From: Burkholderia plantarii
GTDB lineage: Bacteria; Pseudomonadota; Gammaproteobacteria; Burkholderiales; Burkholderiaceae
DNA: 64,000 nucleotides
Reading direction: 5' to 3'
NCBI RefSeq assembly: GCF_001411805.1
Contig: NZ_CP007213.1
Location: 1 to 64,000, forward strand
Position numbers and translations under genes: made by a program. Position 1 is the first letter of the stretch; every line of letters starts with the position of its first letter. This document shows positions 101-42,266 of the stretch, piece after piece. The notes beneath the pieces were generated by a model. That model had not been told where the DNA came from, did no database searches, and was given only the letters and a program-made list of their open reading frames with translations.

Positions 101-763
101 TTGGCAGCCGAAATCATTGCGGTCACGCAGCAGAAGGGTGGTGTCGGAAAAAGCACCATCGCCATGCACCTCGGCGCGGCATTCCATGAAAAAGGAAAGC
201 GCGTCCTCGTCGTCGACGCCGACGGGCAAAACACGCTCATCCACTGGTCCAGCGCATCGGGCGACGCCGAAAACGGCATCCCGTTTCCCGTTGTGAACCT
301 CGCCGAAGCCGGCGGCCAAATCCATCGCGAGATCAAGAAGTTCATCAACGACTATGACATCATCGTCGTCGACTGCCCGCCCTCGATCACCGAAAAGGTC
401 TCCGGCGTCGTGCTGCTAGCCGCCACCGTGGCCGTGGTGCCGACGTCGTCGTCGCCAGCCGATTACTGGTCGAGCGTCGGCCTCGTGAAGCTGATCCAGC
501 AGGCCCAGGTGATGAACGAGGATCTGCGCGCCGTGTTCCTGCTGAACAAGACTGAAGAAAAGCGCATGCTGACGCGGGAATTGAAGCGTGCGATCGAGGA
601 ACTGGGCTTCCCGCTGCTGAAAACCCAGATCCCCACGCGCGAGGCCTACAAGCAGGCGATGGCACTTGGCCAGACCGTCCTGCAAATGAACGATCGTGGC
701 GCACGGCTCGCCGCCGCGGAAATTCGCGCATGCGCCGACGAGATCGTCGCCATGCTGCCCTGA
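101..763 (+). CDS. parA: ParA family chromosome-partition ATPase
   Basis: Walker-type partition ATPase that, with ParB bound to parS, segregates the replicon. The deviant Walker A motif KGGVGKST lies at residues 12-19, the A' segment VVDADGQ near 38-43, and the Walker B-like VVDCPPS at 89-95. At 220 residues it is a short, type Ib-like ParA without an N-terminal DNA-binding extension. The start is TTG at 101, chosen because GGAGCG lies about 5 bases upstream and the motif sits at the normal distance from the N-terminus. It is followed by a parS palindrome and parB 24 bases later, so the two form one operon. The family assignment is firm; that it serves chromosome 2 is inferred from the adjoining origin. 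Confidence 0.95.
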   Translation: MAAEIIAVTQQKGGVGKSTIAMHLGAAFHEKGKRVLVVDADGQNTLIHWSSASGDAENGIPFPVVNLAEAGGQIHREIKKFINDYDIIVVDCPPSITEKVSGVVLLAATVAVVPTSSSPADYWSSVGLVKLIQQAQVMNEDLRAVFLLNKTEEKRMLTRELKRAIEELGFPLLKTQIPTREAYKQAMALGQTVLQMNDRGARLAAAEIRACADEIVAMLP

Positions 764-779
764 CTTTATGCGCATAAAG
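764..779. other. parS centromere site
   Basis: CTTTATGCGCATAAAG is a perfect 16-bp palindrome lying exactly between the parA stop and the parB ribosome-binding region. Its core, TTTATGCGCATAAA, matches what I recall as the ParB target of Burkholderia chromosome 2, distinct from the TGTTTCACGTGAAACA site of chromosome 1. Its place inside the parAB operon is typical for a secondary replicon. I did not see another copy in the window, but I could not search exhaustively. Confidence 0.85.
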
Positions 780-787
780 GACCCTGA

Positions 788-1837
788 ATGAAACCCTCCC
801 AATTCGCCAAAGGCTTCCAGGCGCGCCCCGATACGACGACCAGCGAAAAGCGCACGGCGCTCGACCGCCTGAATGCGATCGACGGCCTCGTGAAGCCGGA
901 TGCATCGGCACCGGCAAAATCGTCGAAGAAGGACATCCCCGTCACGATCGTGGAGACGCCGCCGGCCGAGCCGACCGACGAATCGACGCAATACCACGCG
1001 TGGCGCGTCGCCAACCGTTATCAGCCGGGCCAGATCATCGAACTCTCGCTGAAAGCGATCAAGGCCAGCCCGTTCAATCCGCGGCATTTCTATCTGAAAT
1101 CGTCGATCGCCGAGCTTGCCGTCAACCTTGCTAAGCAAGGGCAGCAGCAAGCGATCCACGTGATTCCCGACTACGAGAATCCCGGCACCTTTTTCGTCAG
1201 CGATGGCGGCCGGCGCGTGCGTGCGCTGAAAGAAGCGAACAAGGAATCGGTGAAGGCGATCGTGGTCGATATCCCGATCGGCATCGAAAGCTACAAGCTT
1301 GGTTACGATCTGAATGTCCAGCGCGATTCGCAGACGGTCTTCGACAACGCCGTCGTTTGGCGCCGGTTCCTGGAAGAAAACTATTTCCAGAGTCAGAAGG
1401 AGCTGGCCGAGCATCTCGGCATCGACGAATCGACGATCGCCGTCGCGCTATCGATCGGCAAGCTGCCGGAAGCGGTGATGCAGGAAATGGTCACGCGCAC
1501 CGATCGTTTCGGTTCGAACATGGCGTACCAGGTCGGTCGCTATCACACGGCGCGCGGGACCGACGCCACGCTGCGGCTGATCAACAAGATTCTGTCCGAC
1601 GATCTGAGCACGCGCCAGGTTGCCGACATCGTGAAGGGCAGGGCGAACACGCAGGAGAACGCGAAGCCGGCTGGCCGCCAACGCTACGCGCAACGTCACG
1701 AGATCAAGATGAACGGCTCGACGGTCGGCGATCTGAAGTCCTATGGCGAGGATCGACTCGAGCTGCGGCTGCGCGGCCTGACGCGTGAGAAGCGCGATGA
1801 AATCCTGCAGCAACTCGAAAAGATGCTGTTGAACTGA
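788..1837 (+). CDS. parB: ParB/RepB/Spo0J family partition protein
   Basis: Centromere-binding CTP-switch protein that loads at parS and spreads. The N-terminal 80 residues are low-complexity linker. The ParB nuclease-like/CTP-binding domain starts near residue 84, includes SPFNPRHF at 94-101, and has the conserved DGGRRVRA box near 139-146. A helix-turn-helix that reads the parS palindrome lies around 202-226 (QKELAEHLGIDESTIA). The C-terminal basic region is the dimerisation part. The ATG at 788 follows parS and GGACC; the length of 349 residues is normal for the family. It is the second gene of the parAB operon and probably represses it through parS. Confidence 0.95.
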   Translation: MKPSQFAKGFQARPDTTTSEKRTALDRLNAIDGLVKPDASAPAKSSKKDIPVTIVETPPAEPTDESTQYHAWRVANRYQPGQIIELSLKAIKASPFNPRHFYLKSSIAELAVNLAKQGQQQAIHVIPDYENPGTFFVSDGGRRVRALKEANKESVKAIVVDIPIGIESYKLGYDLNVQRDSQTVFDNAVVWRRFLEENYFQSQKELAEHLGIDESTIAVALSIGKLPEAVMQEMVTRTDRFGSNMAYQVGRYHTARGTDATLRLINKILSDDLSTRQVADIVKGRANTQENAKPAGRQRYAQRHEIKMNGSTVGDLKSYGEDRLELRLRGLTREKRDEILQQLEKMLLN

Positions 1838-2367
1838 CGTCGCCGGTGGCCTCGCGCCAGTCGGCCAGCGATACCGATGGCGAACAGCGCGGGACGCACG
1901 CCAGACCGCGCAGGCCCAACAGGCGAATGTGCGCGGATCACACCGCCTCGCGCCAAGCGATCCAGACACCCCGAAGGCCGCACCGCGGACTTCGGGGTGT
2001 TTCCATTCGGCGGCCAACACGGCGCTCGTCAACGCAATCGATCTCCCTCGGCCGGGAAAACGACTTCCGCCAGCGCCGACAATCACGATGCCGATGCGCC
2101 GTTTCCCGCCATCTCCGCTCGTGTCGCTCGACGGGCACCCGACAGCCTCGATCCCCGACAGTCGGCGTCGGCTCGCCAAAGCGCCCCAGGCAGGAACCAC
2201 ACATCCATCGCACACGGCAACCACGCACACCCAATCAGCGCCTCGCCTTTCGCCCGTTCCACACGCGAATCCAAGCAAAAAAACCGAACCCGTTCAAAAC
2301 AGGTTCGGCTTTTTAAAAAACTTCAGCGCGAAAGCAAACGTCGTCGCGAACTACCGCCTCACATTTT
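1838..2367. other. Intergenic region between convergent parB and repA
   Basis: About 530 bases without a credible gene. Open frames here are G+C-driven and have no homologous-looking motifs. The only clear element is the terminator hairpin at 2284-2315 near the repA stop. Confidence 0.6.
2284..2315. terminator. Bidirectional rho-independent terminator between parB and repA
   Basis: A 7-bp stem CCGAACC (2284-2290) / GGTTCGG (2302-2308) is followed on the plus strand by CTTTTT and preceded by a run of A, so it can end transcripts from both strands. It separates the convergent parAB and repA transcription units. Confidence 0.8.
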
Positions 2368-3747
2368 TCAAGCCGCGCGTGACTGGTTCAGCGTGAACGC
2401 GAGCAGATCGCCATCGGTCGGCTCGCCCCAGGTCTTCAGCGCGAGCCAGTCGAAGAACGCGGTTTCAACGAGTTTCGAATCGAGGCCGCGCCGGCGCCAG
2501 TCGTCACGCAGGTGCGAACCAAGCGCCGGCAGCACGTCGCTCTCGAACGAGGTGCGCGCAAGGTCGCGTTCGGCCTCGCCCTGTTCCTCGTAGAGCGCCT
2601 TCGCCTCCTTGCGGCGATACGCATCGTATTCGCCGCGCAGGCGCGCCTTCGGATCGTCGGCCACGCCGGTCGCCGACGCGACCGCCGCCAGCTTGCCCGC
2701 GGTGCTACCCGGCAATGCGTCGGCGGGATCGGCCACCGGCGGCGCATAGCCCTTCTTCAGCGCATCCTTGAACAGCGCCGCCGCGCTACGCACCGGCGGC
2801 AGTGTCGTGCTGCGCATCCGCTGCTCGGTCATCTGCAGCGCCGCGCGAATCCGGTTTTCCTCGCTGTCGGCATAGAGCGTCTGCGCTTCCTTCAGCGGGA
2901 TGCCGATCTTCACCATCCGGTCGACAAGCGTGCTGTCGAACACGTTCGGATGTTCGTCGAGCGCGAGCATCGGCTGCTTGCGCTCCGACACGCGGAACTG
3001 GATCTCGGCCACACGGCGCCCTTCGCGGTGCTCGATCAGCTCGACGAAGATGTTCGTGACGGCGTTGACCTCGGCGATCGCCGGGCGCAGATAATCGCGC
3101 TTGAAATACTTGTACTCGCGCTTCGCTTCGTCGCCGGCCTCGGTGTCGGGCGTGCCCGACAGGATCGGGCGCCACCATTCCCACGGCTCGCGCATCGTCA
3201 GATGGCTCGGGTTCGTGAGGTAGCGCACGCAGATCTCGTAGAGCGCGAGGCCCGCGCTGCTGCGCAGCTGGCTCTGGAACTGCAGGCTCAGGCGTGCGTA
3301 CTGCACCGGATCGAGCAGCTTCTTCTTGATCTTCGGCGCGAACGAGAATTCGACCCAGACGCGGCGCGTGGCCGGGTCTTCGAGAATTTCGGCATCGGCG
3401 ATCAGCGTCGAGATGCCCCATTTTCGGCCCGGCTTCTGGCTCGAGGTGCCGGTACTCCACTCCACCTGCACCGACACCATGCGCCGCAGGTGTTCCTTGA
3501 CGAGCGCGGTGTCGTTCGAATCGAAGGCGGAGTTCGCGACGATGTCGGACAGCAGCGCACGATAGGTGTCGCCGGAATCGTCGGCCTGCTGCGCCACGGC
3601 GAGCAGGACGTTGAAGAGCTTGCGGGTCAGCAGCGTGATCTTGCCGCTCTTCGGCTGAATGGCGATCGCCTCGACCGCCTTTCGCAATTCGGCGGAGCTG
3701 GCATTCACCACATCGACATCGGTTTTCTTCGCGCGCTTCGTGGCCAT
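2368..3747 (-). CDS. repA: Replication initiator protein of the secondary replicon (Rep_3-like)
   Basis: A 459-residue initiator that should bind the iterons at 3.87-5.85 kb and open the origin. It has the two-winged-helix look of plasmid Rep_3 initiators: an early segment SGKITLLTRKLFNVLL (about residues 34-49), then a second domain near 215-260 with the hallmark LRPAIAEVNAVTNIFVEL and GRRVAEIQFRV segments. The C-terminal 150 residues are alanine/arginine-rich and unlike compact plasmid Reps. The start is ATG at 3747; no strong Shine-Dalgarno is visible. A 13-bp inverted repeat lies 16 bases upstream and two iterons about 120-250 bases upstream, which suggests autorepression. Which named initiator family it belongs to needs a profile search. 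Confidence 0.85.
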   Translation of the reverse strand: MATKRAKKTDVDVVNASSAELRKAVEAIAIQPKSGKITLLTRKLFNVLLAVAQQADDSGDTYRALLSDIVANSAFDSNDTALVKEHLRRMVSVQVEWSTGTSSQKPGRKWGISTLIADAEILEDPATRRVWVEFSFAPKIKKKLLDPVQYARLSLQFQSQLRSSAGLALYEICVRYLTNPSHLTMREPWEWWRPILSGTPDTEAGDEAKREYKYFKRDYLRPAIAEVNAVTNIFVELIEHREGRRVAEIQFRVSERKQPMLALDEHPNVFDSTLVDRMVKIGIPLKEAQTLYADSEENRIRAALQMTEQRMRSTTLPPVRSAAALFKDALKKGYAPPVADPADALPGSTAGKLAAVASATGVADDPKARLRGEYDAYRRKEAKALYEEQGEAERDLARTSFESDVLPALGSHLRDDWRRRGLDSKLVETAFFDWLALKTWGEPTDGDLLAFTLNQSRAA

Positions 3748-28912: not shown

Positions 28913-29710
28913 TCAGGCTTGCGGCGGCGGGCCGTCGATCTCGGCCGCGGCGCGGCGCAGGATCCCGGCGATGCGGCGCTGTTCGTCCGGTGCCGCCGCG
29001 CTCTTGCGAAACAGTGCCTGCCGCAGCGTCATGCGCGCCTCGACGAACTCGGGCAGCCAGCCGCCTTCCGGGGTCTCGTCGGCGCCCTCGCCGGCCTGAC
29101 CCGTCTGGTTCGCGAACGCGCGGCGCATGAACTCCATCTTGCGGCCGAGGTGCGCGAGCTTCGCGAACAGCAGCTCGACGCGTTCGCGCTGCGCGTCCAG
29201 ATGCGTGCGGCCGGCTTCGGCGAGCGCGTAGCGCTTGCGGTTGCCGTCGGCCTCCACCGTCACGTAGCCGAGTTCCTCCAGATACGTGAGCGCCGGATAC
29301 ACCATGCCGGGGCTCGGCACGTAGAAGCCCTGCGAGCGCGTGTCGAGCGCCTTGATCAGCTCGTAGCCGTGGCTCGGCTGCTCGGCGAGCAGCGAGAGCA
29401 GCATCAGCTGCAGGTCGTCGGAATTGAACTGGCGGCCGCGCGGCATGCGCGGATCGTCGAAACCGCCGGGGCCGCCGGGGCCGCCGAAGCCCTCGGAAAA
29501 GCCGCCGAAGCCGTGGCCGTGGCGACCGCCGCCGCGCCGGCCGCCGACCATCGCCCAGAGGCGGAACAGGCCGTGGTGGTGCGGGTGGTGGCCTTGATGG
29601 TGGCCGTGGTGATCGTGATGGTGGCGCTGGCCGTGATGGCCGCGGTGTTCGTGGCGGCCTTCGTGGCCGGGCACGGCGCCGAAGATGTCGTGGTGATGGG
29701 AGCGACGCAT
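28913..29710 (-). CDS. PadR-family regulator with histidine/glycine-rich N-terminus
   Basis: 265 residues from ATG 29710 with GGAGAAC upstream. The first 95 residues contain about 25 histidines in HH-rich runs and a glycine-rich stretch, then a PadR winged helix at about 100-180 (LLSLLAEQPSHGYELIKAL, then YPALTYLEELGYV) and a helical C-terminus. PadR proteins repress a neighbouring gene and themselves. With a siderophore reductase downstream, the His tract suggests metal (iron, nickel or cobalt) sensing, as in YqjI-YqjH of E. coli, where a metal-binding PadR represses the ferric reductase. This looks like the same pair. Confidence 0.9.
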   Translation of the reverse strand: MRRSHHHDIFGAVPGHEGRHEHRGHHGQRHHHDHHGHHQGHHPHHHGLFRLWAMVGGRRGGGRHGHGFGGFSEGFGGPGGPGGFDDPRMPRGRQFNSDDLQLMLLSLLAEQPSHGYELIKALDTRSQGFYVPSPGMVYPALTYLEELGYVTVEADGNRKRYALAEAGRTHLDAQRERVELLFAKLAHLGRKMEFMRRAFANQTGQAGEGADETPEGGWLPEFVEARMTLRQALFRKSAAAPDEQRRIAGILRRAAAEIDGPPPQA

Positions 29711-29752
29711 CGTGTTCTCCTTGAGATATGTCTTAAGATGTATCGAAAGATA

Positions 29753-29768
29753 TATATCTAAAGATATA
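29753..29768. promoter_or_regulatory. PadR operator
   Basis: TATATCTAAAGATATA is a perfect inverted repeat in the A/T-rich promoter, 43 bases before the PadR start. A second TCTTAAGA palindrome at 29731-29738 follows. These fit autoregulation and resemble the tandem A/T-rich sites of YqjI-type regulators. Confidence 0.6.
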
Positions 29769-29810
29769 AGATCAAGGGGAAAATTTGGGGCGGGATGGTG
29801 GCTGGCTTGC

Positions 29811-30360
29811 AAATTCCCGACGGCGAGGCGGTGCTGGCCATGCCGGTCGTCACGTGAGGTGATCTAATGCAGCCGCTTCGGACGGCCCGGAATGGTTCAC
29901 ACAAAGTCTTCCGATACCGCGGACTCTCGATAATGGAAAGGACTTGATTCATCATTGAACGGACACCGCATAGAGGTGGCAGCGTTGCTGCCTGGTATTG
30001 AAGCCGTATTGATTTGTTTCAGTGCCGTGACATGTGCCGATAAATACAAATGCGGACGCCGAGATGGTCAGAGTCTATTGGACACACTGCGGTATCTCGT
30101 GAATATCGCGCTCATCGGATTCGCTTTGGTTTCATGTGGTGCCTCGAACGGATCGTGTGAAGATTGTCATTGGATCAGAGAACATCGGATGATGTTCGTC
30201 GTGACTACTCGGCGAGAGCAATAACCGCATCGTCAGCGGCTCCAAGGAAACACCTCGGCTTTCGAAAAAGCCCGGCTTCTTTCCGAAATCGGCGTTCACC
30301 CAGCATATATCGATCGGCTGGCTATGCTAACGTCTCGTTTTCCGAGCGCGCTGTCACAAT
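29811..30360. other. A/T-enriched intergenic region at the left edge of the island
   Basis: About 550 bases of visibly lower G+C than the preceding genes. An 89-codon frame at 29955-30224 has no ribosome site and mixed composition, so I do not call it. AGCATA (30302-30307) and TATGCT (30323-30328) form an inverted repeat about 35 bases before the island operon and may be its promoter/operator. No integrase, transposase or tRNA is visible. Confidence 0.4.
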
Positions 30361-32184
30361 ATGTCTGCCTACGTCAAACCAAGATGGTTACGGGATCTGT
30401 TACGTTTCCTTCCGTTAAAGAGCCAGTTCGTCCTGTCAGGGAATGTGCGTGACCTGCAGGCATGCGAGGTGGCGCCGGATGTGGTGACGGCGCAGTCGTT
30501 GGTCAGTACGCTCGGCGACGCCTTGCGGGAGGTGGGTCATGCCCAGTTGGTCGTCTGGAATCCGGTTGCGGGTTTCACGGTGCCGGACAGTCGGGTGCCA
30601 TCCATGGAGCCGGCCGATGAAACGTTGCGGCGCCTTGGGCTGACGCCGATCGACGGCGTGGCGCCAGGTGGCATCGATGTGCTCACCGCGTGCCTCGAGC
30701 GTCTGGTCATGCTGCCGGGTCGGCCAATCGCCCTTGTCGTCGATTTTGCCTCCCGCCTGGCAATTCGCGCCGAAACGCTGAACCCTGCTGAGCACACGCT
30801 TTTTACGCGCGCGCTGGTTTTGGCGCACATGGCGGCGCCGCGTCCTGCTGGCGAATTGCGACGGCCGTTTTTCAATACCGTGATATGGATCGTCGACAAG
30901 GAAGGAGATCTGCCTGACTGGCTGCTGATCGACAATCCGCGCATCCGGCATATTCCCGTGTCGAAACCCGACAGCGCTGCGCGTCGTGCGTTGGCGGGCG
31001 CATTGCTGAGCGGCGTACCCGGTGCGCAAGTGGCTACGCAGGACAGTTTGACGGCGGCGGAGAAAGCTTTTGTCGATGGCGCCGAGGGTTTGCTGTTGGC
31101 CGACATGAATGCAATCGCGACGCTTGCCCGAGTCGAGCAGGTTCCCGTCGAAAAGATCGCCGATGCCGTGCGGCGCTACAAGGTCGGCGTGACCGAGGAT
31201 CCTTGGCAGCAGATCGAGCGCGACAAGATTCGTCATGCCGAGACCTTCGTTCGGCAGCGCGTCAAAGGCCAGGCGCATGCGGTCACGCACATGCTCGATC
31301 TCGTCAAGCGCGCCATGACGGGAGTCGGAGCCCAGCGCAAAGGTAACCGGCCGCGTGGGGTGGCATTCCTGGCAGGCCCGACCGGCGTCGGGAAAACGGA
31401 GCTTGCCAAGACCATCACAAGCCTGTTGTTCAGTGATGAAAGCGCTTACATCCGTTTTGACATGTCGGAGTTCAGCGCCGAGCATGCCGACCAACGGCTG
31501 ATCGGCGCGCCGCCCGGCTATGTCGGCTATGACGTTGGTGGGGAACTGACGAATGCGATTCGCGAGCGTCCATTCAGTGTGGTGCTGTTCGATGAAATCG
31601 AAAAAGCGCATCCGCGCATTCTCGACAAGTTCCTGCAGATTCTCGATGACGGTGTGCTGACATCGGGGCGCGGCGATCGAGTCTATTTCTCCGAGGCACT
31701 GATCATCTTCACCTCGAACCTCGGCATCTATCGTCAGGACGAATCGGGCCTGCGCGTGCCGAATGTCCAGCCGGGTGAGGATTTTGCGGAGATCCAGAAA
31801 AAGGTGCTCAGCGAGATTCAGCAACATTTCAAGCTGGTCCTGAATCGGCCGGAAATCCTGAACCGTATCGGCGAGAATGTCATCGTCTTCGATTTTATTC
31901 GCGAGGATGTCGCGATCGATATCTTCGAGCAGATGATTCGTGGTGTGCTCGACGACGTCACGGCCCAAGGCATCAGCGTCGATCTGGACGTGGAGTCGAG
32001 GATGGCGCTCCAGTTGCTATGCCTAGGCGATCTCTCCAATGGCGGGCGCGGTATCCGCAACCAGATCGAGGCGCATCTGCTCAATCCGCTGGCGCGCGGT
32101 CTGTTCGATCAGGACGCGAACGCGGGCGACCGGTTCGTCATCGCGGGCATCAACTCGGGCACTTTTCAACTGCAGAAGCGTTAG
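30361..32184 (+). CDS. ClpB/ClpA-type AAA+ unfoldase, single canonical module
   Basis: 607 residues. The C-terminal half is a Clp/Hsp100 D2-like module: Walker A GPTGVGKT (339-346), pore loop GYVGYD (386-391), Walker B VLFDEIEKAHP (D411, E412), sensor 1 TSNLG, and a sensor 2/D2-small domain (SNGGRGIRNQIEAHLL). The first 260 residues are not a Clp N-domain or middle domain; a segment FVLSGNVRDL and VVDFA suggests a degenerate P-loop module. The pore tyrosine is kept, so ATP-driven threading of a protein partner is likely. First gene of the island operon, 3 bases before the radical SAM gene. Confidence 0.88.
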   Translation: MSAYVKPRWLRDLLRFLPLKSQFVLSGNVRDLQACEVAPDVVTAQSLVSTLGDALREVGHAQLVVWNPVAGFTVPDSRVPSMEPADETLRRLGLTPIDGVAPGGIDVLTACLERLVMLPGRPIALVVDFASRLAIRAETLNPAEHTLFTRALVLAHMAAPRPAGELRRPFFNTVIWIVDKEGDLPDWLLIDNPRIRHIPVSKPDSAARRALAGALLSGVPGAQVATQDSLTAAEKAFVDGAEGLLLADMNAIATLARVEQVPVEKIADAVRRYKVGVTEDPWQQIERDKIRHAETFVRQRVKGQAHAVTHMLDLVKRAMTGVGAQRKGNRPRGVAFLAGPTGVGKTELAKTITSLLFSDESAYIRFDMSEFSAEHADQRLIGAPPGYVGYDVGGELTNAIRERPFSVVLFDEIEKAHPRILDKFLQILDDGVLTSGRGDRVYFSEALIIFTSNLGIYRQDESGLRVPNVQPGEDFAEIQKKVLSEIQQHFKLVLNRPEILNRIGENVIVFDFIREDVAIDIFEQMIRGVLDDVTAQGISVDLDVESRMALQLLCLGDLSNGGRGIRNQIEAHLLNPLARGLFDQDANAGDRFVIAGINSGTFQLQKR

Positions 32185-32187
32185 TTC

Positions 32188-32832
32188 ATGGACATCCGCG
32201 TTTCACGCCTGCATTTTCCTGTCACGACGCTCGGCCCGGGACGGCGCGTCGGAATTTGGTTTCAGGGGTGCTCGATTCGATGCCCGGGTTGCATTTCGAT
32301 GGATACCTGGGCAAGCGTCGGGGGCGATACCACGGTCGGTGCCGTGCTGGCACAAGTTGGAACGTGGCTGCCCGATGTCGATGGCATTACGATTTCCGGC
32401 GGCGAGCCGTTCGATCAACCCGAGGCGCTGCTCGCGCTCCTGCAAGGCCTGCGGCAGCTATCGGCCTGCGACGTCCTCGTCTACAGCGGCTATGCGATCG
32501 AATCCCTGTCTGCCACCATGGCCCGAGCCGACGGCCTGATCGATGCGTTGATTTCCGAACCGTTCGACATGGCCGTCCCGCAGACACGTCCATTGCGGGG
32601 TAGCGACAATCAACGCTTGCATTGCCTGACCCCTCTCGGTCACACGCGTTTTGCACAGTACGAGCACGCTTCACGCAACGGCGGCAAGGTGCTGGATGTG
32701 ATGTTCGACGAGGATGGCAGCGTCTGGTTCGCGGGGATACCGGAACGGGGCGACTTTGAACGCTTGAGAGACCTATTGACCGATCAGGGCCATCAGGTTC
32801 GGATCAGCGCCGACAAGGCGAAAAACAGATAA
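32188..32832 (+). CDS. Radical SAM protein related to anaerobic nucleotide-reductase activase (NrdG-like)
   Basis: 214 residues. The cluster motif is C28-X3-C32-X2-C35 (CSIRCPGC) inside GIWFQGCSIRCPGCISMDTW, and the SAM-binding GGE is in ITISGGEPFDQ. This is the compact 4Fe-4S activase type, which makes a 5'-deoxyadenosyl radical to install a glycyl radical or modify a partner. No nrdD or other glycyl-radical enzyme is in the window, so its partner is probably an island protein. The gaps are 3 bases upstream and 8 bases downstream, so it is an obligate operon member. Substrate unknown. Confidence 0.88.
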   Translation: MDIRVSRLHFPVTTLGPGRRVGIWFQGCSIRCPGCISMDTWASVGGDTTVGAVLAQVGTWLPDVDGITISGGEPFDQPEALLALLQGLRQLSACDVLVYSGYAIESLSATMARADGLIDALISEPFDMAVPQTRPLRGSDNQRLHCLTPLGHTRFAQYEHASRNGGKVLDVMFDEDGSVWFAGIPERGDFERLRDLLTDQGHQVRISADKAKNR

Positions 32833-32840
32833 GACAGGAA

Positions 32841-35800
32841 ATGTCAGCCATGATGCGTTTTTGTCCAAATTGCCGGACCGAGCGGCCGGTCAACGAATGG
32901 TTCTGCGGCGGCACGGTCGATGGTGCCGCCTGCGGCTGGGATCTGTCGAGCCTACCGATCAGGGCGCCCGGATGGCGCCCGCAGGATGTGATCACGGCCG
33001 ACGAGGTCGTTAACCAGCAGGTGGCGCCTGGCGAATCCGGCGCCGCGGCCAGCGCGCAGCGGTCCTGCCTGAATGGCCATCTAATGAACGACGGCGACTT
33101 GATTTGCCTCGAATGCGGCGCGGATTTAACCGTGCAGACCGACGCGCGGCGGCCAGATAACGGCGTTGGTGATAACCACGGTTTGGGGCATTCCACTGCG
33201 ACAGAGCCTCCCCCGGATCCGGCCGAGGAGACGCGGATCGATGGTTGGCGATTGCTACGTCAGATTTCGAGTACGGACGGTGTGCGTGAGCGTTATATCG
33301 CGCAGCATGACGAGACCGGCCGGCAGGCGGTTCTGACGCTGTACCGGCCTGGGGCGGAACCGGACCCGGCAATTTACGACGTGGTACGCCGCCTGTCGCG
33401 TGAGCATGTACCGGAAATCATCGCCACTGGACGCTGGGATCAACGCGCCTACGAAGTCGCTGAAGAACTGAGCGGCGGGACGCTGGCGGATCTGGGCATG
33501 GCGGTACGTGACGTCGCGACGATCCGGCATGTGGTCGACGAGCTCGGCCAAGCCCTGCAGGCGTTTTCGGATGTCGGCCTGCGGCATCGCGATCTGAGAC
33601 CGGGCACGTTGCTGGTGCGTAGCCATGAACCGCTGGACCTCGTGATCAGCGGCTTCGGCTCGGCACGGCTGTCCGAATTCGATCTCGACATCGTCTCACC
33701 GCTCGAAACGACACGCTACATGGCGCCCGAGGCCATCGCGGGTGGTGTTGCCGCGGCGTCCGACTGGTGGAGCCTCGGCATGATCCTGCTCGAACAGCTT
33801 ACCGACGGTCGCTGCTTCGAGGGCATCAACCCGCGTGCCTTCCTGATTCATGTGCTGGCCAACGGCGTCACGTTGCCGGACGATCTGGATCCATCGCTTC
33901 ACCTGCTGCTGCGTGGCCTGCTGGCACGCGACCGGCATCAACGCTGGCAATGGTCGCAAGTCAAGGCGTGGCTTGACGGCAAGCCGGTGGATGCACCGGT
34001 GGCGACGGGCGTCGATTCCGACGACGGCGAGGGGGCCAGTATTGCGTTAGGGGCGCGGCAATATCGCAGGCCGGCTCTCTTTGCGCTCGCTGCGGCGGAG
34101 CGCGAGAACTGGGATGCGGCCCGCGATCACTTGAATCGCGGTGTCGTGCTGACGTGGACGGAGCAGGCCGGTATCGGGGCAAAAGCGCTAGCCGGCCTCC
34201 GCCAGATCATGCAGCTCGACGGGATCGACGACGATTGTCGTCTAATGATCGCGCTCAAGCTGTTGAATCCCGACATGCCGCTCATTCTGCGCGGCGACAT
34301 CGTCACACCCGGCTGGCTGCTGCAAAACCCGCTGGAAGGCTATGACCTGATTACCGGGCCGATACCCACGTTCCTCGAGCGGCTGGGGACGGAAAGCTGG
34401 CTGTCGCGACTACGCTCGCGGGCCGAGGAGGTACGACACCGGGCCGGCCATCTTGGTGTCGAACTGGACGAGGACATGGTGCGCATCGCGCTGCTGTCCA
34501 CCTCGCGTGCCCAATTGGCGGCACAGTGGGAGGCGCGGCGCCTGTTATTGCCGGATTCGGATCATCATGGCCTGCTGTCGTTGTCCGAACGCCGCATCCT
34601 CAGTGAGGAGGATCTTATCGTCCTGCTGAGCGCGGCCATTTCCCAATTCCGCTCGGTCGATGAAATCCTTGAACAGGCCGCCACCATCGCTGAACGCGAG
34701 CAGATCCTGGCATTCGATCGCCAGGCGGCCCAGGTCGCCCTCGCGCTGCCGCGCGTCGAGCTGTTTCGCTCCGTTGACGACCGGATTGCCGGATTTGCGC
34801 GCACGGGCAATTCGACAGTCGATGCATGGGCAGAGCAATTTCGTCTCGAACGCCGCCTGCCGCTGCACGAAGTAGTCGTACTGTTGTCGGTGCCTGCAGA
34901 GCAGTGGCTGGAACCACAGAAGCAGCAGTATGTGTCGCAGATTCTCGATTTCTTCGAGAAGAAGGTTGCCACCACCGTCTTGCGCGGTCCACTGGTTCGC
35001 ATGACCATCGGCAAGACCACGGGCAGGATCGATCTCAACGAATTGAACGGCGAGCGATTCGCCAGTGCCGCGTTGCTCGATCACCTGCTTCAGCGCAACG
35101 TGCAGACGGTGTCGGTAGACCCGGCCGTGTTTGGCGCGAGCGGGACGCTGGAAGGTCGACTGAACACGCTGTATCGACAGACCTCGCTCTACAAGCGCGA
35201 TACCGGAATCGACGGGCTCTATCTGGGTTTCCCGTTCGTGCTTTGCAAGGATCACCGCAGCACGACGCGTCCCCGTATTGCTCCCGTCCTGTTGTGGCCG
35301 GTCAGGCTGCTGATGGAGCTCGGCACCCGTGGACAGGTTGCGATGGCCTTCGACGGCGAGCGAGAGGAGGTCCGCCTGAATCCGGCGCTCGAGGGCCTGT
35401 TCGGACGCGAAGCGGTCAAGGCATGGCGTGTCGCGGCTGATGAAGTACTCGGCCGTTCCGCGCTGAAGGCTGGCGATGTCGTCGATGCCTTTGGCCTGCT
35501 GGCCGAGGTGGCGAGCCGCAAGCTTGGCGCGTTGCCGCCGCCGACCATCGACCTGCCGGTTGGCACGATGCGCATTGCTTGTGCCGGCGTGCTCTTCCAT
35601 GTCGATTTCGCCGGGCAGGCCATTGGAGAAGACCTGCGTCAGCTCAAGCAATTGTCGCCCTCGGGTACGGCGCTGGAATCGATGTTGAGGCTCAAGGACA
35701 AGTCGGCCTACGATGCGCCCGAAGCGGCCGCGACGGAGCTCGACCGATTCCTGACGGTGGCGAGCGATCCGTCTCAGGAAACGGCAATTCTGCAGGCGCG

Positions 35801-38800
35801 GCAGGGGCCGGGATTGCTGGTTGAGGGGCCTCCTGGTACCGGCAAGAGCCAGACGATCGTCAACATGGTTGCCGACGCGATCGGACGGGGCCGCAGCCTG
35901 TTGATCGTGTGTCAGAAGCATGCGGCGCTGGAGGTCGTGCGCAAGCGCCTGGTCGCGGAAGGGCTGGGTGATCGTATCGTGATGGTCAATGACGTCAACA
36001 AGGACCGCGAGCCGACTATCCGGGCCGTCCGCGAGCAACTGGATGCGATTTTTCGCGGCACGGCGCTCGATCATGGCGTGATCCGTCAGCGCGAACGCAT
36101 GGCCGCGAGGATCGAGATGCTGGAGGGGGAACTGGATCGCCAGCACATGGCGCTTCATCGCGTCGACGAGTCGACCGGCCTTAGCTATCGGGCATTGCTC
36201 GCCGAGCTGATTCGGCTTGAGGCCGGCACGCCGCCTGTCAGCGTGCCGCAGCTGCGCACGTCGCTGGCCGCGCTCGATATATCTGCGTTGACGACGCTGG
36301 AGGAACACTGCGCACCCTTGGCGCGTTACTGGCTGCCGGCGAAATTCGAGGGTAGCGCTTTGGCTCAATTGGCCTCGTTCTCGACGGACGCGGATACGAT
36401 CGAGGCGTTCCGTTCGCGGTTCGCGGATTTTTGTGAGGCGGAGCGGCTGCGCACCGAGACACTCGCTGCCCACCCTGCCCGCTTCGAAGTGGACGACCCC
36501 GCACCTTATCGGAAGTGGCTCGATACCAATGCCGGCCGTCTTGTTGCGCTGGACGACGTTCAACGCAAGCGGCTTGCGCAATGGCTGCCGTTATTTCGTC
36601 CGGCCGATCAGGCCGACGCGGAAGGCCACCGGCATCATGCGTCGCTCAGTGGACTCCATCGCGATCTGCTGGCGGTCGATACCCGCGGTTTCGACGTCAC
36701 GCTGTCAGATGCCGTCGCGAGCACGTCAGATCCGGAGCTCGACCGACTCGAAAGCCAGGCGGCACTCGCGACGCGCGCGCCGTCCTTGTTGAGTCGTCTG
36801 AATCCCGCCACCTACCTGCGACGCGGGCGCCTGATGAAATTCGTCGCCGGTTGCGGCGCACCCGCGACGGACGAGACGCTGCGCAAACTGCTGGCTGCCG
36901 CGCGGCTCGAGCAGGTCTGGCGCCCGTTGCGTCAAACGTTGAACACGATCAGTCGGGCATTGCATCTCGATGTGGTCGACCCTGCATGTGGCCCGGCGCT
37001 TGCCGATGCCTGCCTTACCCGCTTGCGCCAGTTCGAGGAAATTCGCGAGCTCGCGCAGCATCTCGCGATCGCGCCACGCGGCGACGAATTCGATTCGGCT
37101 GTGATGACGGGGGATCGGGCACCGGTTGAGCAGTTGCTCGACGGTTTCGAGGCGGCGTTCATCCGCCACAACGCACGCCAACACAGTCTTCAGGCGCTGA
37201 GGCTGATCGAGGAGTGGTGCTCGGCAGAACTCGTCGCGGCCTGTCGTCAGGCGATCAGCGACAACGTCAGCTACCAGGCGCCGCTGAATCGGGTTAGCGA
37301 TGCCTTGCCGACATTGGCCGCCTATCAGCAGTTCCGTACTCGGGCGAGGCATGTCACGGCCGAAGCACTAGGCGTGTTTGCCATCCTGCGTGACCGCGAG
37401 GATGCGCTTGCTCGTCTGCCGCTTGATCATCTCGACGAGGCGGTGCGGCGGCTGATCAATCGCGAGGCTCGGCTCGGCTGGAAGCGGCGCATGGAGCAGG
37501 ATAACCCCGAGTTGCTGCTCGACCAAAGCGAGACCACCTCGAAAATCGATGCGCTGGCGGCGGCCGACGAGGAAATGCGGCGCCTGAATCGCGAGATGCT
37601 GCGCAATGGCATCGACCGCGGCAAGTTGAGTTCGGCACGAGATTGGGAGGACGTCACGCGTTTGACGGGGCGGCGCTCCCGGCGTCTGCGCGAATTCATC
37701 GAGCTCGGCAGCGGGCTGGGCCTGATGACATTGCGTCCGGTCTGGCTGATGAATCCCGATGTGGCCAGCCGCGTGCTGCCACTGAAGTCGGGCTTGTTTG
37801 ATTCCGTCGTCTATGACGAAGCCTCCCAGATGCCCGTCGAGTATGCGATTCCGACGCTGTTTCGCGGCAATCTGTCGGTCGTCAGCGGCGACGAGAAGCA
37901 GATGCCTCCGACGGCGTTCTTTGCAAGCCGAACAGATAGCGACGAGACGGAGATCTTCGACGGCGAGCAGCCTGACGACACGGCAACCGAAGACGAGCGC
38001 GAGCGCTTCGAGGACACCTGGAATCGACGTGAAATCAAGGATTGCCCCGATCTGCTGCAACTGGCGCGTAGCGCGTTGCCGGTATCGACGCTGCAGATCC
38101 ACTATCGTTCGGCGTATCGCGAACTGATCGGTTATTCGAACGCGGCGTTCTACGAGAACAACCTCAGCGTGCCGGTTCGTCATCCCGATGCCACGGTGCG
38201 CGAGGTCAAGCCGCTCGAGCTCATTCAGGTAAATGGTCTCTATGAACAGCAGACCAACGGCGACGAAGCGGATCGCGTTGTCGACTATCTGGCGCAGCTC
38301 TGGCAACAGTCTTACGCACAGCGGCCTTCGGTCGGCGTGGTGACGTTCAATCGCAAGCAGGCCGACCTTATCCTCGAACGCCTGGCGTTGCGGGCGGAAA
38401 CCGATGAAGCGTTTCGCGACGCCTATCGTGAAGAACTGGATCGCACCGATCGCGGCGAGGATATGGCCGTATTCGTGAAGAATGTCGAGAACGTGCAGGG
38501 TGACGAGCGTGACACGATCGTCTTTTCCACGACCTTCGGCCGTAACGGTCAGGGCACGTTCCGTCGCTTCTTCGGCGTACTTGGTCAGAGTGGCGGTGAG
38601 CGACGTCTGAACGTGGCCGTCACGCGCGCCCGCCACAAGATCGTGCTCGTTACCTCGATGCCGATCCGTGAGATTTCCGACATGCTCGCCACGCAGCGCA
38701 AGCCGGCGATTCCGCGTGACTATCTTCAGGGCTATATGGAGTACGCCCGCGCCATGTCGAACGGCGAGTTGCCGGCCGGTCGGGCCTTGCTGGGCCGCAT

Positions 38801-39176
38801 GAGCAGCGAACGGGCGCACGCGAAATTAAGACAAACGGATGCCTCCGACGGCTTCGCGAGCGAGGTGCTTACCTATCTCGAAGGGCTCGGCTTGACGCCG
38901 GTACCCGCGCAGGAAGGCGACGCTTTCGGGCTTGATTTCGCAATCGCGAACCCCGAGACCGGTCTGTACGCCATTGGCATCGAGTGCGATGCGCCGCGCC
39001 ATCCTTTGCTCGAACATGCACGAGCACGGGAGATCTGGCGTCCGTCCGTGCTGGGACGGGCCATCCCGAAGCTGCATCGTGTCTCGTCGCAAGCCTGGTA
39101 TCACGAACCCGATGCGGAGAAGGCCCGCCTGAAGAGTGCCGTGGAGTTTGCCCTGACCCAAGAGGATGCGGCATGA
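32841..39176 (+). CDS. Giant zinc-ribbon / pseudokinase / UPF1-like SF1 helicase / nuclease fusion
   Basis: 2111 residues. In order: zinc ribbon 1 (C8, C11, C22, C31); zinc ribbon 2 (C76, H80, C89, C92); a Ser/Thr protein-kinase fold (about 133-385) with HRDLRPGTL at 249 and MAPEA near 294, but GFG (271-273) in place of DFG and threonine in place of the HRDxxxxN asparagine; an uncharacterised linker of about 550 residues ending in a DUF4011-like segment (LYLGFPFVLC); an SF1 helicase with Walker A GPPGTGKS (K1002), DEASQ (D1659, E1660), SGDEKQMPP, HYRS, and VAVTRARHK; and a C-terminal Vsr/MTES_1575-like endonuclease (D2032, E2048-C-D2050). The order suggests sensing, signalling and nucleic-acid cleavage in one chain. 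The downstream gene overlaps it by ATGA. Confidence 0.85.
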   Translation: MSAMMRFCPNCRTERPVNEWFCGGTVDGAACGWDLSSLPIRAPGWRPQDVITADEVVNQQVAPGESGAAASAQRSCLNGHLMNDGDLICLECGADLTVQTDARRPDNGVGDNHGLGHSTATEPPPDPAEETRIDGWRLLRQISSTDGVRERYIAQHDETGRQAVLTLYRPGAEPDPAIYDVVRRLSREHVPEIIATGRWDQRAYEVAEELSGGTLADLGMAVRDVATIRHVVDELGQALQAFSDVGLRHRDLRPGTLLVRSHEPLDLVISGFGSARLSEFDLDIVSPLETTRYMAPEAIAGGVAAASDWWSLGMILLEQLTDGRCFEGINPRAFLIHVLANGVTLPDDLDPSLHLLLRGLLARDRHQRWQWSQVKAWLDGKPVDAPVATGVDSDDGEGASIALGARQYRRPALFALAAAERENWDAARDHLNRGVVLTWTEQAGIGAKALAGLRQIMQLDGIDDDCRLMIALKLLNPDMPLILRGDIVTPGWLLQNPLEGYDLITGPIPTFLERLGTESWLSRLRSRAEEVRHRAGHLGVELDEDMVRIALLSTSRAQLAAQWEARRLLLPDSDHHGLLSLSERRILSEEDLIVLLSAAISQFRSVDEILEQAATIAEREQILAFDRQAAQVALALPRVELFRSVDDRIAGFARTGNSTVDAWAEQFRLERRLPLHEVVVLLSVPAEQWLEPQKQQYVSQILDFFEKKVATTVLRGPLVRMTIGKTTGRIDLNELNGERFASAALLDHLLQRNVQTVSVDPAVFGASGTLEGRLNTLYRQTSLYKRDTGIDGLYLGFPFVLCKDHRSTTRPRIAPVLLWPVRLLMELGTRGQVAMAFDGEREEVRLNPALEGLFGREAVKAWRVAADEVLGRSALKAGDVVDAFGLLAEVASRKLGALPPPTIDLPVGTMRIACAGVLFHVDFAGQAIGEDLRQLKQLSPSGTALESMLRLKDKSAYDAPEAAATELDRFLTVASDPSQETAILQARQGPGLLVEGPPGTGKSQTIVNMVADAIGRGRSLLIVCQKHAALEVVRKRLVAEGLGDRIVMVNDVNKDREPTIRAVREQLDAIFRGTALDHGVIRQRERMAARIEMLEGELDRQHMALHRVDESTGLSYRALLAELIRLEAGTPPVSVPQLRTSLAALDISALTTLEEHCAPLARYWLPAKFEGSALAQLASFSTDADTIEAFRSRFADFCEAERLRTETLAAHPARFEVDDPAPYRKWLDTNAGRLVALDDVQRKRLAQWLPLFRPADQADAEGHRHHASLSGLHRDLLAVDTRGFDVTLSDAVASTSDPELDRLESQAALATRAPSLLSRLNPATYLRRGRLMKFVAGCGAPATDETLRKLLAAARLEQVWRPLRQTLNTISRALHLDVVDPACGPALADACLTRLRQFEEIRELAQHLAIAPRGDEFDSAVMTGDRAPVEQLLDGFEAAFIRHNARQHSLQALRLIEEWCSAELVAACRQAISDNVSYQAPLNRVSDALPTLAAYQQFRTRARHVTAEALGVFAILRDREDALARLPLDHLDEAVRRLINREARLGWKRRMEQDNPELLLDQSETTSKIDALAAADEEMRRLNREMLRNGIDRGKLSSARDWEDVTRLTGRRSRRLREFIELGSGLGLMTLRPVWLMNPDVASRVLPLKSGLFDSVVYDEASQMPVEYAIPTLFRGNLSVVSGDEKQMPPTAFFASRTDSDETEIFDGEQPDDTATEDERERFEDTWNRREIKDCPDLLQLARSALPVSTLQIHYRSAYRELIGYSNAAFYENNLSVPVRHPDATVREVKPLELIQVNGLYEQQTNGDEADRVVDYLAQLWQQSYAQRPSVGVVTFNRKQADLILERLALRAETDEAFRDAYREELDRTDRGEDMAVFVKNVENVQGDERDTIVFSTTFGRNGQGTFRRFFGVLGQSGGERRLNVAVTRARHKIVLVTSMPIREISDMLATQRKPAIPRDYLQGYMEYARAMSNGELPAGRALLGRMSSERAHAKLRQTDASDGFASEVLTYLEGLGLTPVPAQEGDAFGLDFAIANPETGLYAIGIECDAPRHPLLEHARAREIWRPSVLGRAIPKLHRVSSQAWYHEPDAEKARLKSAVEFALTQEDAA

Positions 39177-40519
39177 GCGGCCCGAAAGTGGTGCGTATCG
39201 TGACGCGTGAGGAAATCATCGCGATCTGCGAGGGACATCTGCAACGGCTTGATCAGGCCATTGCGATGTGGATCGCCGAGGGGCGGCGTACCGGCATGTT
39301 GTCGGACGAGGAGATCGCAGCGACCCGGGCACGCCAGAAGACGCTGACCGCATTGCTTGCCGCCGATGCATTCATGGACTTGCAGAAGAAGGTGCCCGAC
39401 GAGATAGGTTTCCTTAAGGCAGATCTCGCGCGGCGCCAGCAGGCGGCGGTGGAGCAGGCCGAACAGGCAATGAAGCGTCGGCGGCAGGGACGGCATGGTG
39501 CCGCGACGTTGCTCGATGCGATGGATGCGAAAGGTATCGAGATCCCGGCCGAAGTTCGCGGACAACTCGATCGCTTGCGTTCGGGAGAGGTGCTCGACAA
39601 TGCCGATGCCATGCTCGCAAAAGGGTTTGCGCTACTGGTGCCCCGCCGGACGCCGATGCTCAGCGAAGCACAGCGGACACTGGCGGATCGCTTGATGCCA
39701 ACTGAGGCCGCGACGGATTTTCAGGCCTGGAAAGCCGCACAATTGGCGCAGGCCCGCGATCCGGCGATCGATCGTCTCGACCGGCAAATCGGTGAGGCGC
39801 GGGTGTTTTTGGATGCGTCCGCGGTCGAGGGCTTTGCGTCGCGGCTCGACGTCCTGGAGGATGAGGCGAACGTTGCGCGCAAAAGCCTGTTGCTCGACAG
39901 CCTGATCCTCGATCTGTCGAGCGCTGTCGAAGCGGCTCGCTCGCGGCGCGCGGCGCTGGCCGTATTGGAGGAACTGACGGCGGAGATTCGCGCGCACGAT
40001 GCGGCGGACGCAGTAGCCTTTGTCGAACGTGCTCGACAGTGTGATCTAGCCACTGCCCCCGACGTCATCGCCGAACTGACCGGAGCCGGTCAGGATCTGA
40101 TCGCGCGGATGCGACAGCAGCAGGCCGCGGCTGCGCGGCGTAACGCAATTCTTAACGGCCTCGCGCGACTCGGCTACGAAGTCCACGACGGTATGAGCAC
40201 CGCATGGGCGAAGGATGGCCGCGTGGTCGTCAAGAAATCTTCGCTGCCCGGCTATGGCGTTGAAGTGGGGGGGCAAGCGCAAGTTGGCCGCTTGCAGGTC
40301 CGGGCGGTCTCCTTGACCGCGAATCGCGACGTTGCACGTGACAAGGACGTGGAGACACTCTGGTGCGGCGAGTTTGGCCGATTGCAGGCTTTGTTGGCAG
40401 AGCATGGCGACGATCTGTTGATCGAACGCGCGATGGGCGTCGGCGAAGTGCCGCTCAAGGTCGTTGCCGATATGGACGACAGGTACGACGCGGGGTCAGC
40501 CAGCCGGGCGATGGATTGA
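39173..40519 (+). CDS. Helical, charged hypothetical protein of the island operon
   Basis: 448 residues from the ATG that overlaps the helicase stop (ATGA), so translation is coupled. The N-terminus MSGPKVVRIVTREEIIAIC is followed by long amphipathic helices rich in Ala, Arg, Glu and Leu (coiled coil about 75-340). The C-terminal 120 residues look globular, with a beta-rich part around 350-420 (STAWAKDGRVVVKKSSLPGY). No enzymatic motif. Probably a structural or adaptor subunit of a complex with the fusion protein. Confidence 0.75.
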   Translation: MSGPKVVRIVTREEIIAICEGHLQRLDQAIAMWIAEGRRTGMLSDEEIAATRARQKTLTALLAADAFMDLQKKVPDEIGFLKADLARRQQAAVEQAEQAMKRRRQGRHGAATLLDAMDAKGIEIPAEVRGQLDRLRSGEVLDNADAMLAKGFALLVPRRTPMLSEAQRTLADRLMPTEAATDFQAWKAAQLAQARDPAIDRLDRQIGEARVFLDASAVEGFASRLDVLEDEANVARKSLLLDSLILDLSSAVEAARSRRAALAVLEELTAEIRAHDAADAVAFVERARQCDLATAPDVIAELTGAGQDLIARMRQQQAAAARRNAILNGLARLGYEVHDGMSTAWAKDGRVVVKKSSLPGYGVEVGGQAQVGRLQVRAVSLTANRDVARDKDVETLWCGEFGRLQALLAEHGDDLLIERAMGVGEVPLKVVADMDDRYDAGSASRAMD

Positions 40520-40586
40520 ATCGGTGCAAGGAAAGGTAGCCCGGCCGTGATAGTTACCACGCGCCGGACCCTTGATAATGAGCGAT

Positions 40587-41336
40587 TTAATTGCTCTTTT
40601 CCGGAACTAACGGTTGGGAGCCGAGCGAATCCGTGAACTGGCCGATACGCTCACCATATGCGTGGCGCAGGCAGTTCAGATCCTGACCGCATTGATGTCG
40701 TGCGGCGACCCAGTCCGATTCCGATTGACGAAGCGTTTCCGGATCGGAAATGGTGCGTAGCGCGGCCGAATATAACTGAGCGAGCCTCCGGTCCATTGCC
40801 GCCAGACCGGGGTCGTGGCAGATAGCCGACTCGTCGCCCTGTGATGCACGTGAACAGTCGAAACTGGTCGCGAACGTCGGATCTGGAACAGCACCGGTAG
40901 CAGGCGCCTCGGGGGCGTCATTACTTGTCGTGGATATTTCAGGAGATCGGTGGTCCGTGTCTGCCATATGGGACTCGGATGGCGCCGATGTCTGAACTTC
41001 GGGCGCCGGCGTGTCGCGGCTTTCCGATACGGTCGGAGCAGGAGTCGTTTGCGCGGTGGCGCGCTCCTCGCTGTTCGCCTCGTTCCGAATTGGCGAGGAT
41101 TGCACCGGTTCGACGTCTGAATTGAACAGGCGGTTGACAAGCAGGCCAACCAGGAAAATGCCAATTCCGCACAACAAAATCTTGCTCGCCCGTCCGAAGT
41201 TTCTGGTGTCGGGCGCGTTATTCTTATAGCCGGTCTTGAATCGCCGATCGACCTTGCGCGTGTCCATAAAACCGCTAATTCCGATCAACGATGCGAGCGC
41301 ACCGATTCCGATCAGACTATTGCCCAGCATCGTCAT
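40587..41336 (-). CDS. Membrane protein with C-terminal LprI-like (DUF1311) domain
   Basis: 249 residues. Hydrophobic helices at about 4-22 and 52-70, a Ser/Thr/Pro-rich linker (about 75-150), then a compact cysteine-containing domain (about 158-238: FDCSRASQGDESAICHD, then LAQLYSAAL, then QCGQDLNCLRHAY) of the LprI/DUF1311 lysozyme-inhibitor-like type, probably in the periplasm. It is convergent with the island operon, 67 bases away, and shares its lower G+C, so it arrived in the same or a neighbouring event. A link to the system is unproven. Confidence 0.75.
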   Translation of the reverse strand: MTMLGNSLIGIGALASLIGISGFMDTRKVDRRFKTGYKNNAPDTRNFGRASKILLCGIGIFLVGLLVNRLFNSDVEPVQSSPIRNEANSEERATAQTTPAPTVSESRDTPAPEVQTSAPSESHMADTDHRSPEISTTSNDAPEAPATGAVPDPTFATSFDCSRASQGDESAICHDPGLAAMDRRLAQLYSAALRTISDPETLRQSESDWVAARHQCGQDLNCLRHAYGERIGQFTDSLGSQPLVPEKSN

Positions 41337-42266
41337 GTGATTCCCCGTGGCAAAACTGCGGATGAGTTTGCCGTTGCTTGATATATTTTATTCGCGCTTC
41401 CTGCGCGGATGATACCTGAGTCAATCGATACGATGTCGATGTTTGTGCGTGATATCAGGAGCGCCGCTCAAGCGCTTTCCTTTTTTGCACTTGCGGTATC
41501 ACATTGCCATTGAATTTCATTCTCTGGTCATTTGTGCTTGTGCGGAGACAGGGGTGTGATGTCCTGTGCGTTCATTGCCGCGGTTCTCTTTCGACAGTTA
41601 TCGCAGTTACTGATCGCGTACTGGTCCTCGTGGAGGGGGCGGTAGCCATGGTCCGAATCGGGCTGCTATGGTGTCGGACCATAGCGGCAGGAGATGCGAC
41701 GTAGAGTTGTGGCCATGAGGCCGGACCGTGATGTCGGCTTGTGATCGAGCCCCGCTTCCAGCGTTTCCTTGCCGAGGATCGCCGACAGGCCAAAAAAACC
41801 GATCTTTTTTTGCAGGAGTTGACCTGCACGATTGAACGATTCGTTCGATTGCCAAATGCTATCGATTGCGAAGGCGGCGTCACGAATCGATGGCCCAACG
41901 CCGGCTCGCTCCGACATTGCCCCGCATTTCGACATGATCCGCCGGGTGCCCGGCGCCCCGGTTTTGTTCCAAGTCAGCACTGCAAACCAAAGTCGAATGC
42001 CGTGCCCTCGCCTGGCCGGCGCGTCCGGCTTGACACGCCTCTTGCCGCTGTTATGGAATGAACAAGGCACGCCGGACCGCCGGCACCGCAAAAGGCGGGC
42101 GACGCGCGGCAGGCCGAGGCATCGGCATGACGGCCGCGAACCTCGACCCGCATCCGCGGTGTCGCCAACCGGCTTCGTGATGGACGCGATGGTTCCGCCC
42201 GGGCAGGCGCCGGCCCGGCACGCTGGCCATTCGAAAAACACAAATGCTCAACACGGACCTCGACGA
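41337..42266. other. Gene-poor right edge of the island
   Basis: About 930 bases. The first 550 are A/T-rich relative to the chromosome, the last 350 return to high G+C. A minus-strand open frame (about 41666-42241) has a patchy, cysteine-rich translation with no motif or ribosome site; I suspect decayed sequence. No promoter for the antiporter gene is obvious. Confidence 0.4.

Follow-up and report, generated by a model that had tools for sequence, protein, structure and literature searches.

How four genes packed on one strand of a G+C-poor island work together, and against what, is the question raised by the window analyzed here, the opening 64 kb (64,000 nucleotides) of contig 2 of the Burkholderia plantarii genome (8.08 Mb, 3 contigs). 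The genes, all on the plus strand, encode an ATPase (AAA; 30361-32184, 607 aa), a radical S-adenosylmethionine (SAM) enzyme (rSAM; 32188-32832, 214 aa), a zinc ribbon-kinase fold-helicase-nuclease protein (KHN; 32841-39176, 2111 aa) and an adaptor (ADP; 39173-40519, 448 aa). A sequence-only reading had described them as a four-gene operon with a 3-base spacer between AAA and rSAM, an 8-base spacer between rSAM and KHN and an ATGA overlap between KHN and ADP, all of which was reproduced from the open reading frames. Its claim of a G+C content below that of the flanks was also borne out, with 58-64% across 30001-42000 versus 67-74% in five windows on each side (2-kb windows). The G+C content at third codon positions was 0.71-0.74 in AAA, rSAM and KHN (ADP is absent from that listing) and 0.64 in a convergent gene (40587-41336), compared with 0.83-0.90 in the four listed preceding genes and 0.90-0.95 in the first three beyond the convergent gene. 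From the sequence evidence, a role of the operon in biological conflict of some kind appears likely. That it is a horizontally moving, most likely anti-invader, system working by the mechanism proposed below has, in our judgment, about the same chance of being right as wrong.

Do the four genes belong together? Scanning the named genomes with the single ADP sequence found no locus, and a 25-sequence ADP profile yielded 110 loci, the best 80 of which were retained for linkage counts. AAA was present in 75 of these, rSAM in 77 and KHN in 80, as was ADP (by selection), and the complete set, with gene order and strand unchanged, was present in 75/80 loci. Four of the remaining five end at a contig edge (L018, L054, L057, L088), and the fifth, on a Microvirga plasmid (L089), is broken by a transposon: an ISKra4 transposase gene cuts KHN, and neither AAA nor rSAM is present. 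Linkage in 75/80 loci is not due to chance, and the expectation that the genes stay together in other genomes held across phyla. Even among the 75, a contig edge truncates AAA in L049, and KHN is fragmented in L075 and L085. As we would group them, the hosts include Burkholderiales, Pseudomonas, Xanthomonadaceae, Orbaceae, Legionella, Rhizobiales and Chlamydiota. Few other neighbors recurred, the most widespread being a short-chain dehydrogenase-like family found in 9 loci at variable distance.

AAA is an Hsp100/Clp-type ATPase. It matches Pfam AAA_2 (1.4e-45), and its structure model (pLDDT 75.5, with a low D2 portion) gave full-length Foldseek matches to ClpC, ClpA and ClpB (best E 2.4e-26). 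Residues ~330-600 form D2, with a Walker A motif (339-346), a GYVG pore loop (386-389) and a Walker B motif (407-412); K345 is kept in 75/75 relatives. Residues 1 to ~260 form a D1-like ring without Walker A, a motif found in 0/75 relatives. The earlier description of a ClpB-like threading ATPase was thus right as to D2 and its pore loop but has to be corrected for D1: AAA is built as a Clp-type double ring, with Walker A missing from the first ring. Consistent with this, it lacks the two ATP-binding rings of ClpB, and its score with the ClpB model TIGR03346 is 261 bits versus the 1232 needed. It shares with the disaggregases ClpB, ClpC and ClpA the two-ring architecture and the D2 motifs and differs from them in D1 and in the ClpP-type tripeptide (ClpP loop), which is found in 1/75 relatives and missing in 74/75; its length would also leave no space for an N-domain or M-domain. 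These features suggest that AAA is probably a ClpP-independent threading motor with a single active ring. Like DolB of Dodola and PDC-M37B, it is a ClpB-like ATPase of a kind found in defense or candidate defense systems (67 and 97 bits, respectively), the matches being confined to residues 262-454. The partner of DolB in Dodola is DolA, and the PADLOC matches listed for the four proteins (in the case of KHN, the 25 best-scoring out of 31) contained no further Dodola model.

The second gene encodes a short radical SAM enzyme resembling glycyl radical enzyme activases. It matches Pfam Fer4_12 (1.4e-22) and has the CX3CX2C motif (residues 28-35), a GGE motif (GGEPF, 71-75) and the PFL-AE/NrdG-like core of such activases; C28, C32 and C35 and the GGEP motif are kept in 77/77 relatives. 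Its match to the NrdG profile (E 1e-21, 77.3 bits) lies below the equivalog cut-off of 126.1, and the closest solved structure in a profile search was the PFL activating enzyme (E 5e-19). The usual partner was indeed missing, as the sequence-only reading had noted: a Pfam scan of the four proteins identified no glycyl radical enzyme in the operon, and the Gly_radical domain had no match anywhere in the genome. The single NrdD of the genome also lies on contig 2 (3.74 Mb in length), near 3.07 Mb, and has an activase-like match adjoining it. As there is no glycyl radical enzyme in the operon and the NrdD has an activase-like gene next to it, the operon rSAM probably serves the operon itself. The NrdD match (3072399-3074787) is split in two, with an open frame of 690 aa (profile positions 2-531) and one of 137 aa (profile positions 532-561), and the activase-like match then follows.

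We considered the possibility that rSAM makes a modified nucleotide or a small molecule, as viperin does, while the ATPase acts elsewhere. The rSAM of a plasmid operon from Polaromonas, described below, does weakly match prokaryotic viperins (E 7e-6). Yet the window rSAM matched no PADLOC family at E<=0.1, pVip (prokaryotic viperin) included, and its closest solved relative, the PFL activase, modifies a protein. The pairing of rSAM with an unfoldase likewise suggests a protein substrate, and we regard a viperin-like product as very unlikely.

KHN, analyzed through its Pfam domains and through motif conservation in 76 sequences, consists of zinc-ribbon-like Cys motifs, a kinase fold (~130-378), DUF4011 (767-851), a superfamily 1 (SF1) helicase (~970-1940) and an MTES_1575/Vsr-like nuclease (2005-2100). 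K1002 and E2048 are kept in 76/76 sequences, so that all the residues singled out by the sequence-only reading in AAA, rSAM and KHN are present; D2, rSAM, helicase and nuclease show nearly invariant catalytic motifs over 75-77 sequences. The Cys motifs, helicase and nuclease of that reading were all recovered, as was the kinase fold, but not an active kinase. At positions assigned by eye, T replaces the expected VAIK Lys in 73/76 sequences and G the DFG Asp in 72/76, and the domain is therefore probably a conserved pseudokinase. KHN was in pieces or cut by a transposase gene in several genomes (L075, L085, L116, L220). PA2727 of Pseudomonas aeruginosa is presumably the orthologue of KHN.

The top profile scores of KHN were with anti-phage or candidate anti-phage models, namely ProA (NF058533; 481 bits) and PDC-S37 (460 bits, a model without a stated cut-off). 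The ProA score is far under the curated cut-off of 1500, as is that with Hhe (NF042953; 296 bits) under its cut-off of 2000. All three matches span the helicase and nuclease half of KHN, which, unlike these proteins, also has Cys motifs and a kinase-fold domain and belongs to a four-gene operon. The operon shares a helicase-nuclease logic with Mokosh (MkoA/MkoB, MkoC). However, KHN did not match the MkoA-type helicase over most of the model (the best of three stretches, 1652-1942, reached 159 bits, below ProA and PDC-S37), none of the four proteins matched the PLD nuclease domain of MkoB or MkoC (Pfam, E<=0.1), and the operon adds the ATPase, rSAM and the adaptor.

The AAA and rSAM pair also occurs in other types of operon, a point that goes beyond the sequence-only reading. 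The ATPases of these operons are 32-39% identical to the window AAA, of which the alignments cover 89-99% (69% in the Geminocystis case), carry Walker A in D2 alone and have an rSAM of the same kind nearby. In what we call type II, the order is helicase-type protein, PIN protein, ~370-aa protein, AAA and rSAM, and the hosts are five plasmids from Moellerella, Polaromonas, Acinetobacter, Photobacterium and Leisingera (L091, L093-L096). Profiling, which covered the Polaromonas proteins (L093), gave 340 bits to MkoA for the helicase that accompanies the pair and a match of the PIN protein to the N-terminus of MkoB (E 1.4e-4). These operons are candidates for a plasmid-encoded, Mokosh-like variant. 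Type III, from an Aristaeella plasmid (Firmicutes; L092, 1-16909), has the order DUF4011 protein, kinase, MSGPK protein, FHA, rSAM, AAA, phosphatase (PP2C), DUF6273 and kinase. One Pseudomonadota genome combines AAA and rSAM with a CPKC-motif protein and phosphatase-like and kinase-like genes, and this locus had no match to the reference helicases. A looser case is a cyanobacterial plasmid of Geminocystis, in which the AAA and rSAM genes lie ~8.7 kb apart.

We also weighed whether the four-gene operon acts on incoming plasmids or conjugation and not on phages, as part of competition between mobile elements. Type II is carried by five plasmids in different hosts, two of which are typed as conjugative. 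A search of 398 Pseudomonadota genomes with the type II adaptor profile yielded a single doubtful hit (E 5.5e-4). For the four-gene type, in contrast, adaptor matches were limited to 11/72,556 plasmid records, which indicates that plasmid carriage of this type is not general. We consider such a specialization unlikely.

ADP had been called a helical adaptor. Its long helices (12-332) agree with this description, which has to be extended to a C-terminal alpha/beta domain (341-422); a strand (2-10) precedes the helices. The sequence MSGPK starts 195/198 adaptors of the four-gene type (type I; locus frames first trimmed to MSGPK where present) and all 81 of the untrimmed type I locus sequences (81/81). 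It also starts 99/117 type III adaptors, SGPK being found within the first 60 residues in 113, and 0/54 type II adaptors. The MSGPK start is thus common to the type I and type III families, whose profiles gave no significant match to each other. The type III MSGPK adaptor has 776 homologues; 120 were listed, and the few of these that carry a name are of the Clostridia type. In the Chlamydiota-like loci L081-L084, identity to the window was ~59-60% for AAA, 51-53% for rSAM, 44-45% for KHN and 31-34% for ADP, indicating that the adaptor evolves fastest.

Is the operon mobile? ADP was found in 8/61 genomes searched, all 8 among 37 genomes of the same genus (Burkholderia). The left-flank DNA of the window was matched in 61/61 genus genomes, and the right-flank DNA gave long matches in only 3 other genomes. 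Comparison of eight operon-bearing Burkholderia loci (L200, L204, L205 and L010-L014) placed the start of homology at 30280-30305 and its end at 40470 (L204, L013) or 41324-41354 (the other six), delimiting a cassette, to which no strand is assigned, at 30280-41350. Seven of the eight had no match to the window flanks within the compared DNA (318 bases to ~10 kb per side; the L010 comparison covered just 318 bases upstream), and only L200 also matched the left flank. Conversely, L201-L203, fetched at the left flank, matched it alone up to 29551-29796, meaning that this site is without the operon there. The occurrence of the cassette in Burkholderia is therefore sporadic and site-variable. More widely, a profile of the AAA N-terminus matched 9/398 Pseudomonadota genomes, counting that of the window and at least one doubtful case (G425), and 1/25 genomes in the genus of P. 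aeruginosa PA7, namely PA7 itself.

The PA7 operon occupies ~2539700-2549763 (minus strand), and pheT lies at 2516991-2519363; 3/7 proteins scanned between them gave matches at E<=1e-5, being DndH-like, type II methylase and restriction endonuclease-like. According to PMC10250203, the right flank of core defense hotspot 1 (cDHS1) consists of a small hypothetical gene, a large DUF4011 gene and a radical SAM gene. The PA7 operon fits this description of genes beside the hotspot next to pheT and borders the hotspot, with defense-type genes between itself and pheT. In the passages considered, the flank genes serve as markers, and neither a four-gene system nor an ATPase is described.

We also considered a role in stress or repair, in which KHN would process damaged DNA or stalled complexes, with the ATPase and radical enzyme repairing or maturing it, and would have no action against invaders. 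The merR and DUF4011 markers are present in every P. aeruginosa isolate (PMC10250203), and a core DUF4011 gene, which would be unusual for a defense cassette, suits a role of this kind. So do the neighbors. At loci other than PA7 (L010-L014 and L089 left out), 440 flank genes were found, 321 of them candidates within 6.5 kb; 148 were drawn at random and 134 scanned, the last in locus order being omitted. In their Pfam tally, LysR regulators, short-chain dehydrogenases and acyl-CoA dehydrogenases ranked highest. PADLOC gave an ambiguous signal, with 17 rows at E<=1e-20 with 20 member matches, named Mokosh, Upx, JetD, PDC-S15, mad and QatD, most simply 7-8/134 proteins, versus 4 rows with one member each, or at most 4/131 proteins, in a control of 131/156 genes, taken from 11 regions chosen arbitrarily in different genomes. 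Against such a role, the operon is sporadic outside P. aeruginosa and at differing sites, and the best profile matches of KHN are anti-phage models. Insertions reported in PA2727, of 15 bases in a cystic fibrosis isolate pair (PMC4918941) and of one base in a clone comparison (PMC3697988), argue in the same direction, given the orthology assumed above. We regard the stress or repair explanation as rather unlikely.

The core DUF4011 gene and the ambiguous defense signal in the flanks count against a conflict system, as do several other observations. Viral contigs contain hardly any adaptor relatives (1 ADP locus and 1 plasmid-type adaptor locus, and 0 loci for the Firmicutes-type adaptor). The type II adaptor has no detectable homology to the MSGPK adaptors, two short contigs carry ATPase relatives without an rSAM in reach, and a KA1-like assignment of the ADP head is borderline. 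A new conflict system, as the sequence-only reading had proposed, nonetheless finds support in the 75/80 linkage, the motif conservation, the anti-phage best scores, the recurrence of the pair on plasmids, the sporadic sites and the cDHS1 border, although without the active kinase; it is on these grounds that we hold the balance to be even. Novelty was upheld within the sources covered: no description of the four-gene set was found in PADLOC 2.0.0, NCBIfam 20 or the papers searched (open literature, with few subscription papers and no bioRxiv).

Among the neighboring features, the convergent gene (40587-41336, minus strand) comes after the operon at some loci of Burkholderia and Pandoraea and is included in the homologous DNA in 6/8 Burkholderia loci. 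Its product weakly matches Pfam LprI (5.5e-4, under the family cut-off), its family was clustered in loci L010-L012 and L019, and it is probably a passenger. Another recurrent gene (start in L061 MQNVSGNLYLSSTDLVGHLNC), which we take to resemble the N-terminal part of a RecB-like nuclease family, lies upstream of the operon in L061, whereas in L069 and L076 it lies downstream. Contig 2 opens with ParA-, ParB- and Rep3-type initiator genes (101-3747), which resemble the replication/partition region of a secondary replicon.

How might a conflict system of this composition work? We propose that KHN would be both sensor and effector, the SF1 helicase engaging foreign or abnormal nucleic acid and the Vsr-like domain cutting it, while the zinc-ribbon and pseudokinase half would restrain the protein. 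ADP would be a rod-shaped scaffold whose head, made of the MSGPK strand and the C-terminal alpha/beta domain, docks on KHN, perhaps at the pseudokinase, and so bridges the complex. AAA would pull open a segment of ADP or KHN by threading, and rSAM would modify the exposed segment by radical chemistry of the activase type, leading to an armed or triggered state. This specific order of events is much less likely than a conflict role as such. In the PFL glycyl radical enzyme, oxygen cleaves the chain at the radical. By analogy, AAA and rSAM could be a portable post-translational trigger shared by several kinds of conflict operon: the motor would thread the MSGPK chain or a KHN segment past rSAM, a radical would form on a backbone carbon and, in aerobic hosts, oxygen would then cut the chain, irreversibly freeing the helicase-nuclease or, in Firmicutes, the kinase-phosphatase circuit. 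We put this forward as a long shot; to our knowledge, no immune switch that works through radical chemistry of a protein has been described.

Helicase-nuclease defense proteins are known, but we found no description of one partnered with both a radical SAM enzyme and a threading unfoldase. The helicase-nuclease of KHN is of a known kind, whereas the AAA and rSAM module may be newer. Its recurrence in at least three operon architectures (Pseudomonadota/Chlamydiota, plasmids and a Firmicutes plasmid) makes it a module worth seeking in other genomes. The conserved MSGPK adaptor offers a handle for finding substrates, and the position bordering the main defense hotspot of P. aeruginosa renders the function of the operon testable.

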